41,870 bases of DNA, from positions 1-41,870 of the forward strand of contig DYDL01000003.1 in NCBI GenBank assembly GCA_020717925.1, given 5' to 3'. Shown here one piece after another: positions 23,310-28,120 of this stretch (positions are counted from its first letter, which is position 1; each line of letters begins with the position of its first letter). The stretch is from Desulfocapsa sp. Lineage in GTDB: Bacteria > Desulfobacterota > Desulfobulbia > Desulfobulbales > CG2-30-60-27. A model generated the notes under the pieces. That model had not been told where the DNA came from, searched no databases, and worked only from the letters and a program-made list of their open reading frames with translations. The translations under genes were made by a program, and so were the position numbers.

Positions 23310-24133
23310 TGCAAATCCCGGCGCTGGTAGATTGTGGCGGCGAGCCATAGAGCTAGAACGGTATAGGCAGCGGCAAGGCCAAAGCCAGTGGCCAAGAGAT
23401 TTAAAGACGGCAACGCCTCTTCGACAGTGATAAAGTTCTTGAAATCCAGGCGGGCAAAATCCGGGAATACTGAGGTCAGCCCGGCCAAGAATTTGGCCAT
23501 CCCTGCCTGGCTATTCGACTCCGCCAGCTTTTGCGCCACCGACTCGCGCACCACCGGCAAGCCTGAGCAGATGGCGTAAAAGGAGAGCGAGACGAGCAGC
23601 ACCGGGAAGTTGCCGCGCACCAGGCCCGAAAAAAGCAGGATCACGGAAAGCAGCATGAGCTGCATGGCAAACATGCCTCCCCAGGCCAGCAGAAAGGCGC
23701 CAACAGATAGCTGCTCAAAATAGACAGGCTTAACCAGGCCCTTAATGATTGCAAGGGTGCCGAAGCCGATGCCGCCTAGCAGCAGATTGAGCAGCAGCAA
23801 GAGAAACGCGAGCCCCGCAAACACACCCAGCACATATTCGCCACGGGAGATAGGTCGTGCGATCAGTGAATAAATAACGCGGCGCTCCTCGTCCAAGGCC
23901 ATGACTTGCACGGCGTGGAAAAAAAGAAAAATAAAGCCGGTGAGCCAGGCAACGGAGATCACAAAATCGCTAGCCGCCCGGCCAATATCGCGGGAGATGA
24001 AGTCGAAGAACAACAAGCCTCCGGCCTCGGCGGCCAGGGCGAGTGCGATCAGGCCCAACAGAGCGTGACGGCGAAGGCCGTCGAGCACCAGGAGCCTGGC
24101 CAGGGCCGCGATGCGGCGCAATTTATCCGGCAT
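23306..24133 (-). CDS. ABC transporter permease (PilI-like)
   Basis: 275 residues from the ATG at 24133, which has GGAGGAAG upstream and overlaps the end of the ATPase gene; a longer frame upstream lacks support. Six hydrophobic segments are visible, starting with LLVLDGLRRHALLGLIALAL and then a cytoplasmic MALDEERRVIYSLIARPISR loop, the typical ABC-2 coupling region. The family exports or moves polymers and peptides. Gene overlap with the ATPase and the PilG-like gene indicates one complex. Proximity to pilA suggests the PilI role in pilus biogenesis. Confidence 0.72.
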   Translation of the reverse strand: MPDKLRRIAALARLLVLDGLRRHALLGLIALALAAEAGGLLFFDFISRDIGRAASDFVISVAWLTGFIFLFFHAVQVMALDEERRVIYSLIARPISRGEYVLGVFAGLAFLLLLLNLLLGGIGFGTLAIIKGLVKPVYFEQLSVGAFLLAWGGMFAMQLMLLSVILLFSGLVRGNFPVLLVSLSFYAICSGLPVVRESVAQKLAESNSQAGMAKFLAGLTSVFPDFARLDFKNFITVEEALPSLNLLATGFGLAAAYTVLALWLAATIYQRRDLQ

Positions 24134-24869
24134 GGACGCTTCCTCCTTGAACCAGGCGCAGAAAACCATCGGCCAGGGTGGCGCTGCCGGTCTGGCCGCA
24201 GAGGGCGGAAGGGCTGCCCTCGAATATGCTCTGCCCTTGGTGCAGAAGCAACACCCGGTCGGCCACCCGGTCCACGTCTTCAAGAATGTGCGAACAGAAG
24301 AGGATGGAGCGGCCTTCTTGCTTTAACTCTTGAATAAGCGCCAGAATGTCGGCGCGGCCGATGGGATCGAGCCCGCTCATGGGCTCGTCCAGAATGAGCA
24401 GTTCTGGGTCGTGTAGAAGAGCAATGGCGAAGTTAGCCCGCTGCTGCATGCCCTTGGAAAAGTCGCGCAACGGCCGCCGCCTCGCCTCCCACAGGCTCAA
24501 GCGCTTAAGCCACTTCTCGCCGCTTGCGCTGATCGACTTGGCCGTCATCAGGCAGGTGGCGCCGGTATAGCGCAGCATGTCGAGCACCGTGAGGTTGGCC
24601 GGGAAGCTCGCGGTTTCCGGTAGATAGCCGATGCGGCGGCGCAGCAGATGGTCGCGTGGGGGCTGGCCAAAGACCTGGATGCTGCCCTTGTCTGGCCGGA
24701 TGAAGTCCATGAGCAGCTTGATGCTCGTGCTCTTGCCGGCGCCGTTTGCCCCGATTAACCCAAGGGTTTCGCCCTGCCCAACCGTGAACGAAACCTCCCG
24801 AAGGGCCGTGTGCGCCCGTCCGGTAAGCTCCTTGGCGTAAGTCTTCCAAACCTGTGAAAATTTAATCAT
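24123..24869 (-). CDS. ABC transporter ATPase (PilH-like), intact copy
   Basis: 248 residues. Walker A GANGAGKST is at residues 40-48, the signature is FSKGMQQRANFAIAL, Walker B is LLILDEPMSGLDP, and the switch His follows in FCSHILEDV. It energises the adjacent permease. The ATG directly abuts GGGGACGTTGTTTAC on its upstream side, which is the same terminal sequence found before the RAYT gene, and no ribosome site of its own remains. The gene therefore starts exactly at the edge of the inserted segment 24870-26790. A truncated paralogue (26801-27316), about two-thirds identical by eye, lies on the other side. Confidence 0.85.
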   Translation of the reverse strand: MIKFSQVWKTYAKELTGRAHTALREVSFTVGQGETLGLIGANGAGKSTSIKLLMDFIRPDKGSIQVFGQPPRDHLLRRRIGYLPETASFPANLTVLDMLRYTGATCLMTAKSISASGEKWLKRLSLWEARRRPLRDFSKGMQQRANFAIALLHDPELLILDEPMSGLDPIGRADILALIQELKQEGRSILFCSHILEDVDRVADRVLLLHQGQSIFEGSPSALCGQTGSATLADGFLRLVQGGSVHAG

Positions 24870-24921
24870 GGGGACGTTGTTTACCTAGTGATTTTAATAT
24901 TGCGCTCGGACCCCGAAAACC

Positions 24922-25341
24922 TTACAGCACCATGACTATACAACGGGCAAATCCCTCAAGATCGTTGAGGGATTCCCGGATCACCTGATGGACCAGATGA
25001 TAGTCTATTTTCCAATACATATGCACAAGCAGATTCCGGCAGCGGGCGGCCTTTTGCAGATTGGTGGACAGTTCCGCCGGAATCACCCCGGCCGATTCCA
25101 GCAGGGCAAAACATTGGGCATACTCTTCCGGAACTTGGCGCAACTGCTTGGCGCAGACATGATAGCAAAGTTGCAGGGAGGCCTCGATGGCAACCTGCAA
25201 TCGGTAACATGCTATGTCCAACGTATCCTGATCGGCAAGAAAAGCCTGAAGCGGCAACGTCTCGATCAGCCGCAGCCGGGCCACCGAATCGCTTATTTCC
25301 TGGGCGCGGGTCCGCACCAATTCCTGATTAAGCACCGGCAA
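24922..25341 (-). CDS. hepT: HepT-like toxin (DUF86)
   Basis: 139 residues, all helical. The HEPN RNase motif RX4HXY is intact as Arg102-Asn-Leu-Leu-Val-His107-Met-Tyr109. HepT toxins act as RNases and are silenced by AMPylation of the motif tyrosine by the partner MntA. It overlaps the end of the nucleotidyltransferase gene by 14 bases, the normal order for this system. Confidence 0.9.
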   Translation of the reverse strand: MPVLNQELVRTRAQEISDSVARLRLIETLPLQAFLADQDTLDIACYRLQVAIEASLQLCYHVCAKQLRQVPEEYAQCFALLESAGVIPAELSTNLQKAARCRNLLVHMYWKIDYHLVHQVIRESLNDLEGFARCIVMVL

Positions 25342-25735
25342 AGGCCTCCTTGGTAGCCCTCAGCAGCAGGGGCTTGAGGTCCAGATACCGGCAGACGGTC
25401 TGCTCGAAGATACGCCCGTGGAGATCAGAATTCCTATCCACTAGGAGTTTGCCACGCAACACCTGAAACACAAACGAAACCGGCGCGTTGTTCAGAGCCC
25501 GCGCATCCACCGGACACCCAATCTGCCTACTCAAGTGATCCGACAGGTCAACGGCGAACATCTCCATGGCTAGGGGGGAAAGCCCCTCAAGATACACGCC
25601 GATGTCAATGTCATGGAACGGAATCTCGTCTAGAAACGAGCCGTGCAGATAGGCGAATTGAATCGCCTCCCGCTCTTGCAGCAGACGGCTGAGGGTGTCG
25701 ATGATCTCGTGCCGTTCCTGAGAGGAAGTCATCAT
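25328..25735 (-). CDS. mntA: MntA-like nucleotidyltransferase antitoxin
   Basis: 135 residues of the minimal nucleotidyltransferase fold. The active-site motif reads GSFLDEIPFHDID (Gly32, Ser33, Asp42, Asp44), i.e. GSX8DXD; the textbook MntA spacing is GSX10DXD, so the loop is two residues shorter, a variant seen in some partners of DUF86 proteins. It would AMPylate the HepT toxin encoded directly downstream. The gene lies 12 bases after the stop of the RAYT gene, closer than expected for unrelated genes. Confidence 0.87.
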   Translation of the reverse strand: MMTSSQERHEIIDTLSRLLQEREAIQFAYLHGSFLDEIPFHDIDIGVYLEGLSPLAMEMFAVDLSDHLSRQIGCPVDARALNNAPVSFVFQVLRGKLLVDRNSDLHGRIFEQTVCRYLDLKPLLLRATKEAFAGA

Positions 25736-25747
25736 AGGGGGCTTTGT

Positions 25748-26731
25748 TTACTGAGTGAGTTCAATGGCGCGTTCCAGTTTCTTCGCCAATCTTGGCTGTT
25801 CCATGAGTATGCCTGCCCCGCGCCGTGCCGCCCGGCTCACTGCCGCCCGGCCGAGGCGAAGCATCCCGCCCGCCGACGCACCGCCATACCCCAGCAACCA
25901 GATCGCGGCATGACAGAAAACCGCGCGCGCTTCCGAGACCGCGTTTTGCCTGCCTCGCAAGCCAAGCTCCTCGGGGCGCAAACCAAATAGCCCGGCAATC
26001 CGCGTGAGCAACTCCGGCAAAGGAAGCTTTCGATCGATTTGGGCGGCCAGGCCCTTTTTCCGGCTCAGTTGCTCAAGAAAATTTTCGCCGCCCAGCACTC
26101 GCCTGTCAACAATTTTCTCGAAAAATTCCTCCGCATCCCGAGGGGCACGTCCAACCAGTTCAGGACGCCGCCCCTCGGCAATACCGTCCGCCACATAGCT
26201 CAGGTAATTTACGCGGGCCGTGGCAGGACGCTTGCCAAAATGTTGAAGAATCTCGCTCACCGCTTGACCTGGCAAGGGGTCGTGGCCCACAAGCCCGGCA
26301 TGGCCGCACCAGGGATAAAGGCCGAGGGCATCCAAATCTGGCACTACCCCGGCGCGCAAGGGGTTCAGGTGAATGTAGCGCACCAGTTCCAGAAGGTAAG
26401 TTTCTTCATCACAGACAATGGACTTGTAGCGATTCTGAAACAGATGTCCAACGCGCTGATGGCGGCGGTTGAAGTTGACCGCGTACCGGGTGAGCAGTCG
26501 GCGCATGAATTGGCTGAGTGTTGCCTCGCAAGGCTGGACCAGCAGGTGAAAGTGGTTTGGGAGCAAGGCCCAGGCATAGCAAACGGTATTAGTCTCTTCA
26601 AGGGCTCTGGCTAGATATTGGCCAAAAAGCGCGTAGTCTTTCTTGCCAAGGAAAATCTTACGCTTTTCAATACCGCGCACCATAACGTGCTGCATGAGAC
26701 CAGGCATATCGAGGCGGGCTTTGCGTGGCAT
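25748..26731 (-). CDS. REP-associated tyrosine transposase (RAYT, Y1 family)
   Basis: 327 residues. The N-terminal ~130 residues are a Y1 transposase domain: HUH motif NHFHLLVQP (His60, His62), nucleophile Tyr102 in the NRYKSIV motif, and YIHLNPLRAG after it. The C-terminal ~100 residues resemble the helix-turn-helix of DnaA-type tails found on many RAYTs. These enzymes nick single-stranded DNA at short palindromes and are often single-copy, domesticated genes. Its leader contains GGGGACGTTGCTTACTGATT. It stands between the two pilH-like genes, next to mntA. Confidence 0.9.
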   Translation of the reverse strand: MPRKARLDMPGLMQHVMVRGIEKRKIFLGKKDYALFGQYLARALEETNTVCYAWALLPNHFHLLVQPCEATLSQFMRRLLTRYAVNFNRRHQRVGHLFQNRYKSIVCDEETYLLELVRYIHLNPLRAGVVPDLDALGLYPWCGHAGLVGHDPLPGQAVSEILQHFGKRPATARVNYLSYVADGIAEGRRPELVGRAPRDAEEFFEKIVDRRVLGGENFLEQLSRKKGLAAQIDRKLPLPELLTRIAGLFGLRPEELGLRGRQNAVSEARAVFCHAAIWLLGYGGASAGGMLRLGRAAVSRAARRGAGILMEQPRLAKKLERAIELTQ

Positions 26732-26800
26732 GTGAATAATTTAGCGAAAATGATCGGTAAAGTCAAAGTAAATCAGTAAGCAACGTCCCCGTGGTGTCCC

Positions 26801-27316
26801 ACGGCCGATGGGATCCAGACCGCTCATGGGTTCGTCAAGAATTAGCAACTCCGGATCATGAAGCAGGGCTATGGCGAAGTTGGCGCGTTGCTGCATCCCT
26901 TTGGAGTAATCGCGCAGGGGGCGTTTCCTGGCCTCCCAGAGCCGCAGGCGGGTAAGCCAAACTTCCCCCTTTTCCCGGATATCCGGCACAGACATCTGGC
27001 AGGTGCTGCCAGTGAATCGCAGCATATCGAGCACGGTAAGGTTCGAGGGGAAATTGGCGGTTTCCGGCAGATAGCCGATTTGACGGCGTATGGCTGACCG
27101 GGCTGGGGTTTGCCCAAAGATGACGATAGAGCCTGCATCGGGGCGGATAAAATCCATGAGCAGCTTGATGGCTGTGCTCTTGCCCGCGCCATTGGCGCCG
27201 ATGAGGCCAAGGGTCTGCCCTTTGTCCAGGGAGAAGGAGACGTCGTGCAGAGCGGCAGGGGCGGCGAGAAAGAGTTCCTTGGTGTATCTCTTGCAGACGT
27301 TGTCAAACTGAATCAT
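26801..27316 (-). pseudogene. Truncated PilH-like ABC ATPase
   Basis: The first 172 codons match the intact ATPase at 24123-24869, including Walker A (GANGAGKST), the signature (YSKGMQQRANFA) and Walker B (LLILDEPMSGLDPIGR). Similarity stops exactly at LDPIGR. The frame then runs about 20 codons through the terminal sequence of the RAYT-linked segment and stops at 26741. The switch histidine and C-terminal helices are missing, so the product should be inactive as an ATPase. It is the first gene after pilA and its terminator, i.e. where the functional pilH would be expected. Confidence 0.85.
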
Positions 27317-27414: not shown

Positions 27415-28014
27415 TTATTTTACGACCCAAGCGGCAACAGCGCCGATATCGTCGGCGGCCGGGGAGTTAGCTGCCACAGAACCATTGAAGGCAACGATAG
27501 TCAGGGCGGTGGCCGTTGCAACGAGAGTCGGGTGCTGGTATATATTGGTAGTTTCTGCTTCGGTGGCGAATGTAGTGTTGCCATTCAGATGCTTTGCTGC
27601 GGCTTGATACGTCGTGGCGGGGGTAGCCGCAGCCGGTGCCAATGGAGCGCGGACAAAGAGAGTAACACCATTGCTAACGGAAACCACGGTCCCCCTATTA
27701 TTAGCATCTGCATCCACTGTGCCGAGACCATCACCGGCACTATTTCCGCCTGAGACTTCGACACCCACGGTGGGTGCAGCGGGAACGAAAGCTCCAGCGT
27801 TGGACTGAGATGTGCCGAAACGCTGCCAGTCGGCAACCAGCGCCGCTTGCGCGGTAACAGCATTCTTCAAATCGCTTAAAGACGCACTGTTGAAGCCACG
27901 AATCCGATACGCCGCAAACTGCGGAATGGCGATAGCCGCCAAAATACCGATGATCGCCACAACGATCATCAACTCAACCAGGGTAAAACCTTTTTCTTGC
28001 CGGTAAATCTTCAT
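27415..28014 (-). CDS. pilA: Type IV major pilin PilA
   Basis: 199 residues from the ATG at 28014, preceded by GGGAGGAAG. The class III prepilin leader is short, MKIYRQEKG, cleaved before Phe10; FTLVELMIVVAIIGILAAIA follows, with Glu at +5 of the mature protein, as required for pilin assembly and PilD cleavage/methylation. The C-terminal globular part is about 140 residues, Ala/Gly/Thr-rich and without a cysteine pair, so this is a full-length pilin and not a short Geobacter-type conductive pilin. It stands alone between a terminator and a sigma-54-type promoter. The divergent minor-pilin operon starts 505 bases away. Confidence 0.93.
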   Translation of the reverse strand: MKIYRQEKGFTLVELMIVVAIIGILAAIAIPQFAAYRIRGFNSASLSDLKNAVTAQAALVADWQRFGTSQSNAGAFVPAAPTVGVEVSGGNSAGDGLGTVDADANNRGTVVSVSNGVTLFVRAPLAPAAATPATTYQAAAKHLNGNTTFATEAETTNIYQHPTLVATATALTIVAFNGSVAANSPAADDIGAVAAWVVK

Positions 28015-28120
28015 AATGTCTTCCTCCCTACCCTTAAATCTTGCTTGGGCAACATGCCCGCGAACCCCGTCCCCCAATTTGGTTCCATGGTATTTACAAA
28101 ATCGGTTTGGCATGTGCTTC

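Follow-up and report, generated by a model that had tools for sequence, protein, structure and literature searches.

A TIRYT transposase unit with an adjoining HepT–MntA toxin–antitoxin module and an extra end copy in Desulfocapsa, and the recurrence of toxin–antitoxin modules between TIRYT ends

Introduction

The usual picture of RAYT-like transposases is one of nearly domesticated genes, present in single copy and with no evident reason to persist. The stretch of DNA analysed here, termed the window (41,870 nucleotides, contig DYDL01000003.1 of Desulfocapsa sp., assembly GCA_020717925.1), contains the gene of such an enzyme next to mntA and hepT, the genes of a toxin–antitoxin (TA) pair, and the three genes are bracketed by copies of one short sequence. 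The locus raises the question of which part of this block is the transposase's own unit, and of how the TA pair became associated with it. According to the original prediction, a REP-moving RAYT had acquired the TA pair as cargo and separates two pilH-like genes.

Results

Three copies of the end sequence in the window

As predicted, three GGGGACGTTG-type sequences are present in the window, at positions 24870 (+), 25737 (+) and 26776–26790 (–). The outer two, GGGGACGTTGTTTAC at 24870 (+) and GGGGACGTTGCTTAC at 26776–26790 (–), bound the block of hepT, mntA and the RAYT gene, all three on the minus strand; the arms of this outer pair (24870/26790) extend to 29 nt and are 76% complementary. The copy at 25737 (+), GGGGGCTTTGTTTAC, has two mismatches to the GGGGACGTTG-type sequence. 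It had been regarded as a third partial copy, and it does exist, as the decayed downstream end of the transposase unit itself (25737–25764, +), overlapping the transposase stop codon. The upstream end of the unit (GGGGACGTTGCTTACTGATTTACTTTGA..., 26763–26790, –) is located 45 bp upstream of the transposase start. The outer end copy (24870–24897, +) has the same orientation as the decayed inner end and is well preserved, with 26 of 28 bases identical to the upstream end of the sister species. Throughout the 3.5-Mb genome, the 15-mer with at most one mismatch was found only at the outer two window sites and at one other site. Because of this rarity, the two copies 1.9 kb apart are not a product of chance.

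The transposase is a TIRYT

The transposase gene (25748–26731, –) encodes a protein of 327 amino acids with matches to Y1_Tnp (Pfam, 3.7e-11) and REP_Tyr_transpos (2e-18), the NCBIfam score of the latter being 66.7 of 80 bits and thus below the cut-off. The catalytic motifs are intact, comprising the HUH motif (HFH), the catalytic tyrosine in YIHLNP, and the NP motif; H59, H61, Y118, N122 and P123 are invariant in the window protein and its relatives. Two features of TIRYTs were found, namely a Y1 HUH catalytic core with a Y---NP motif, and terminal inverted repeats that begin with GGGG and take the place of REPs. A Bac_DnaA_C or HTH C-terminal domain was undetected in the window protein, and most relatives gave weak, consistent matches. 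The transposase of the sister species, which aligns with the window protein over the full length (70%), gave such a match at 4.5e-6, below the curated cut-off. The end sequences fold no better into REP-like hairpins than shuffled sequences do (z –0.8 to +1.1), and no GTAG palindrome was found at the ends. We rejected a REPtron-type RAYT, as flanking REP hairpins with a GTAG foot were not found, and also an IS200/IS605 insertion sequence, as terminal inverted repeats are present and subterminal hairpins were not found. We conclude that the window transposase is a TIRYT (RAYT group 1/subclass 2.1), a Y1 HUH enzyme with terminal inverted repeats of ~28 bp, and not the REP-moving RAYT of the original prediction. 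TIRtrons, with GGGGWSAS repeats, were described by Di Nocera et al. (2013; PMC3733652), and subclass 2.1 of TnpA-Y1, to which RAYT group 1 of Bertels (2017) was mapped, by Quentin et al. (2018; PMC6006769). The TIRYT/TIRtron family probably corresponds to subclass 2.1 and RAYT group 1.

The ends belong to the transposase family

We surveyed 80 loci fetched by transposase similarity, supplemented by about 120 loci of genomes belonging to the same phylum; most of the loci are from metagenome assemblies, where repeats break contigs. Paired inverted ends, one upstream of the start codon and one at or just after the stop codon, flank 152 of 204 distinct related genes. The end-to-end span has a median of 1,074 bp (middle half, 1,058–1,090 bp). 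A typical end of ~28 bp consists of GGGGACG followed by two tandem repeats of 8–9 bp, and GGGAC occurs at both ends in 133 units. In most relatives the upstream end lies about 55 bp upstream of the ATG, and the end in the window is of the same position and type. Between units at unrelated sites, homology covers the whole unit and stops at its two ends (L049/L042, L010/L013, L038/L007). Thus, with inverted GGGGACG-type ends at the same positions in so many relatives, the ends belong to the transposase family, as had been assumed. Neither the same gene order without terminal repeats nor a general occurrence of the repeats without a RAYT was encountered: relatives with the transposase gene have the repeats, and the exact motif was present in 3 of 96 relatives.

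The basic unit in the window therefore spans positions 25737–26790 (1,054 bp), bounded by the decayed downstream end and the upstream end. Positions 24870 and 26790 were rejected as its normal ends, since relatives end just past the transposase stop. Among paired units, no target-site duplications above the level of shuffled pairs were detected, as expected for Y1 transposases. In all paired units, the 14 bp outside the ends are purine-rich on both sides, on the strand that reads GGGGACG inward, which possibly reflects a target preference. Plasmid records yielded weak matches only (<40% identity, partial) and viral contigs a single fragment, on which basis the transposase family appears to be chromosomal here.

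The flanking ATPase genes are old paralogues

On the left, an intact ABC-2 type ATPase gene (24123–24869, –), pilH-like by its position next to pilA, has its start codon directly at the outer end; this part of the original prediction was borne out. On the right lies a 3'-truncated ABC ATPase paralogue (26791–27316, –), the reading frame of which continues to 26741 through the end sequence. The right end had been proposed to truncate this gene; the truncation after LDPIGR is real, and homology stops at 26802, 11 bp from the end. The adjacent gene for a pilA-like type IV pilin (27415–28017, –) fixes the orthology with the sister species. The two ATPases share 73% protein identity and are, judging from this divergence, old paralogues. 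An insertion splitting one pilH gene was rejected on the grounds that the ATPases are diverged paralogues and that the sister species has only one; the expected empty site with one uninterrupted pilH was not found in the relatives.

With the outer end abutting its ATG, the window ABC ATPase gene has no obvious Shine-Dalgarno sequence upstream (24855–24890). The sister species keeps AATAGGAG upstream of the TTG start of its ATPase gene (L004, 5003–5024). Expression of the ABC ATPase may be altered in the window genome.

HepT and MntA lie outside the basic unit

The HepT toxin, a HEPN RNase (24922–25341, –), matched HepT-like (1.2e-27) and HepT_toxin (4.2e-31, above the cut-off), and its RX4HXY motif is intact as RNLLVHMY. 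The MntA antitoxin, a minimal nucleotidyltransferase (25328–25735, –), matched Polbeta (2.6e-13) and MntA_antitoxin (3.2e-13; NCBIfam score 49.5 of 60 bits, below the cut-off). Pfam and NCBIfam thus confirmed the predicted identities of HepT, MntA and the RAYT, with the MntA and RAYT models below the NCBIfam cut-offs. The genes hepT and mntA overlap, and the pair has the composition of a type VII HepT–MntA system, with an RX4HXY-containing HEPN RNase beside an MNT nucleotidyltransferase. The MntA motif reads GS-X8-DID instead of GS-X10-DXD; antitoxin activity of the protein is likely. As 12 nt separate the transposase stop codon from the start of mntA, the transposase gene, mntA and hepT probably form one operon, in which mntA is perhaps translationally coupled to the transposase gene.

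Both TA genes are located outside the basic unit, between its decayed inner end and the well-preserved end copy at 24870. The TA pair had been interpreted as cargo; it is indeed bracketed by extra end copies, as an add-on beyond 25737 and not as internal cargo. The window genome has three HepT genes, one of which lies within the 0.87-kb bracket, with a probability of about 7e-4 by chance.

The TA module and one end copy are present or absent together

The cargo-free locus that had been suggested for comparison was found in a sister species of the same genus (G001, L004). There, the same unit is found at the corresponding position, flanked by pilA and the ABC ATPase gene; both of its ends are intact, and mntA–hepT and the truncated second ATPase gene are missing. 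In the sister species, the ATPase start is 16 bp away from the end, whereas in the window it is directly touched by the outer end. In a second pair, one locus has the order transposase–end–pilD (L041) and the other transposase–end–mntA–hepT–end–pilD (L048), with homology resuming at the outer end. Thus, MntA–HepT plus one end copy is present or absent at orthologous insertions in two independent species pairs, each consisting of two genomes, so that the difference can be read as gain or as loss. The HepT proteins of L048 and the window are only 30% identical and were therefore acquired separately. Several units have type IV pilus genes (pilA, pilD, pilM) in their neighbourhood; they come from different genomes, and their TA modules differ (window, 27415–28017; L048, 3024–3806; L041, 3207–3986; L049, 1705–2310).

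Different TA families recur between end copies

We tallied the Pfam assignments for segments of 250–5,000 bp between adjacent end copies, in a survey that was not blind to TA genes and that compares segments with single ORFs. Toxin genes were found in 20 of 60 segments, spread over 13–14 of about 200 loci. The ends recur with several different TA families: MntA–HepT (window, L048, L053, L054, L159), VapBC/PIN (L037, L048, L057, L099, L159), ParDE/RelE-type modules (L038, L049, L099, L106), HipBA (L010), AbiE (L094, by AbiEii) and YefM–YoeB (L106). Exactly one TA module is closed by one end copy in the window, L010, L037, L048, L049, L057 and L277. TA modules occur on both sides of the transposase gene, including arrays with one TA module per interval. 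About two thirds of the segments have no recognised TA module, which indicates that capture is not specific; they encode PEP-CTERM proteins, DUF4143 or DUF815 ATPases, and others. The commonest non-TA contents include PEP-CTERM proteins (three members; e.g., L009 and L019) and AAA_14/DUF4143 ATPases (L055, L159). At L094 (G352:C31, 4061–4924 and 5989–6762), a transposase unit is flanked on either side by a copy of the same AbiEii gene, and one of these copies lacks its cognate AbiEi.

The 124 bracketed proteins included six PIN, five HepT, four ParE and two AbiEii proteins by Pfam, together with cognate antitoxins. Where units lack extra ends, none of the toxin families had two or more members among 124 immediately adjacent proteins, and 124 distant ORFs included two PIN proteins. 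A search with toxin seeds found one toxin-like protein among 172 proteins next to such units and one among 130 distant ORFs, or about 1 in 150; only these two control counts were used, as the 24 of 125 in the bracketed set is circular, the seeds having come from that set. Simple proximity of transposases to TA genes was rejected as insufficient, the neighbours of units without extra ends being unenriched. The 15 TA carriers, including L139 (antitoxin gene only) and L044 (TA pair, no inner end), are scattered over the 193-row transposase tree, with 15 label changes, 13 of which are forced by well-supported branches. The association therefore arose many times. HepT proteins of different arrays share only 20–36% identity. 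This recurrence with many TA families in unrelated genomes suggests that TA modules are collected by the units and may in turn keep the units in the genome.

TA arrays also occur on contigs without a transposase gene

In some genomes, contigs without a transposase gene carry TA arrays in which each module has one end copy. Contig C39 of genome G114 has the order end–MazF module–end–DUF5615/DUF433–end–PIN module, with all ends in one direction. Contig C60 of G380 carries a DUF4258 module between two ends, and contig C203 of G382 several TA modules between two end copies. We compared genome-wide TA density for PIN and HepT only. In G114, four of five PIN genes lie on two end-bearing contigs that make up 11.9 kb of 4.1 Mb (0.3%), and only one of six HepT genes lies within an array. 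PIN genes near ends were not enriched in G380, G381 and G382.

Discussion

From the anatomy of the locus, the presence or absence of the cassette in two species pairs and the recurrence with unrelated TA families, we consider it fairly probable that the locus is a TIRtron (25737–26790) extended by MntA–HepT and an extra end copy, through use of that end or local hopping, and subsequently retained by the TA module. The extra copy at 24870 faces the same way as the downstream end of the unit. The Y1 enzyme may accept any correctly oriented end and read through the inner to the outer one, carrying along the DNA between them. Alternatively, end copies may hop locally and thereby come to bracket neighbouring genes. 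Most extensions would be lost by recombination between direct end copies, a process that could account for both loss and amplification, and TA-bearing extensions would persist, as loss of the module would expose the cell to the toxin. At the window locus, the decayed inner end would favour use of the outer end and hinder recombinational loss. The composite would then move as one unit and maintain itself by addiction, i.e., killing after loss. Among the survey loci, we found no composite of transposase and TA module that occupies two unrelated sites and whose homology stops at the outer ends; transposition of the composite is therefore a proposal. The TA modules between outward-facing ends (L159, L038, one in L106) are unexplained by the nested-unit model, and we count the many segments with no recognised TA module, the missing PIN enrichment in G380, G381 and G382 and the single HepT gene within a G114 array against our explanation.

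It is less likely, yet a serious alternative, that the composite does not move at all. In this case the transposase would make solo or miniature copies of the ends, which insert locally around it, and the locus would lie in a TA-rich island or turn into one; the TA modules would arrive by other means and do no more than stabilise the neighbourhood. Such local insertion agrees with the clustering of end copies around the transposase gene (11 of 18 in G380, 12 of 15 in G114, 4 of 6 in G381, 6 of 14 in G382), with miniature end pairs of 130–520 bp between TA modules at L159, and with L041, where genes for an AbiEii nucleotidyltransferase and a Fic-like protein lie directly upstream of the unit without an extra end (398–2057). 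It does not readily account for the many intervals that hold exactly one TA module and one closing end copy, nor for the joint gain or loss of the two in the orthologous pairs; furthermore, TA modules are not abundant next to units that lack extra ends.

We regard it as rather unlikely that cassettes are gained and lost solely by homologous recombination between end copies (24–140 bp of near identity), independently of the transposase. Recombination between direct copies would yield exactly the cargo-free state, and the tandem repeats of 600–680 bp at L273 (an end plus a ribbon-helix-helix antitoxin gene, 88–94% identity) fit this process. So does an MntA–HepT cassette of which one genome has two copies (86%), one each in the arrays L278 and L280, but there homology does not stop exactly at the ends, and recombination covers amplification and loss but not the first end copy beyond an unrelated TA module. 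That similar short motifs and a TA module merely adjoin the transposase gene by chance is highly improbable: with up to three mismatches allowed, 0.8 occurrences of a 15-mer are expected in 42 kb, so that such a motif is not very rare, but the conservation of 28-bp ends in 152 relatives, the genome-wide rarity of the 15-mer, the two orthologous comparisons, the recurrence with many TA families, the bracketed versus control counts and the scatter on the tree all argue against it.

If the extended TIRtron is retained by its TA module, the recurrent tie to TA modules offers a reason for persistence, as the unit or the surrounding array becomes costly to lose. It would also provide a concrete route for gathering and shuffling chromosomal TA modules of many families, and a case in which the capture of passengers by a single-strand (HUH, Y1) transposase can be tested. 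Searches of the open-licence literature yielded nothing relevant on a RAYT with TA cargo; an earlier description elsewhere, e.g., in subscription journals, is possible.

The closest known elements are TIRtrons, with which the loci described here share a Y1 HUH transposase of about 330 amino acids, terminal inverted repeats beginning with GGGG, ends that also occur singly, paired or grouped, and a low copy number; in relatives, weak matches suggest a DnaA-C-like C-terminus as well. What the present loci add is TA modules enclosed by end copies and TA arrays delimited by them; a search of the 2013 paper gave no mention of toxins or passengers (PMC3733652), and the sole mention of a toxin in PMC6006769 concerns E. 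coli strains in which the REPtron is replaced by a TA operon. RAYT/REPtrons such as E. coli TnpA-REP (PMC8266576) likewise have a related Y1 enzyme whose recognition sequence occurs nearby in inverted copies, and these can cluster near the gene, but the ends of the window type lack the palindromic hairpin and the GTAG foot. TA pairs are known passengers of Tn3-family transposons, including a HEPN/MNT pair in TnSod9 (PMC7157771). There, too, one transposon family has acquired several TA families independently, with a potential role in maintenance. In contrast, Tn3 elements use an unrelated DDE transposase, and their TA genes are fixed next to res, without end copies per module or arrays.

Integrons and superintegrons carry TA cassettes (reviewed in PMC8876359 and PMC12548467) in arrays of modules that are separated by repeated recombination sites and thought to be stabilised by the TA modules. 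Here, the enzyme is a Y1 transposase instead of a tyrosine integrase, the sites are copies of terminal inverted repeats instead of attC, and TA orientation is mixed. Of the integron-like properties, the array layout alone was seen here, and cassette recombination is our proposal. We tentatively suggest, as a rather doubtful extension, that TIRYT ends serve a cassette system as its attachment sites. The Y1 HUH enzyme would operate this system, excising and inserting a gene module plus one end copy as a single strand. Directional arrays would be built beside the transposase gene and in trans, and would fill with TA modules as these resist loss. If true, the TIRYT cassette system would be a functional analogue of the superintegron built from an unrelated enzyme.
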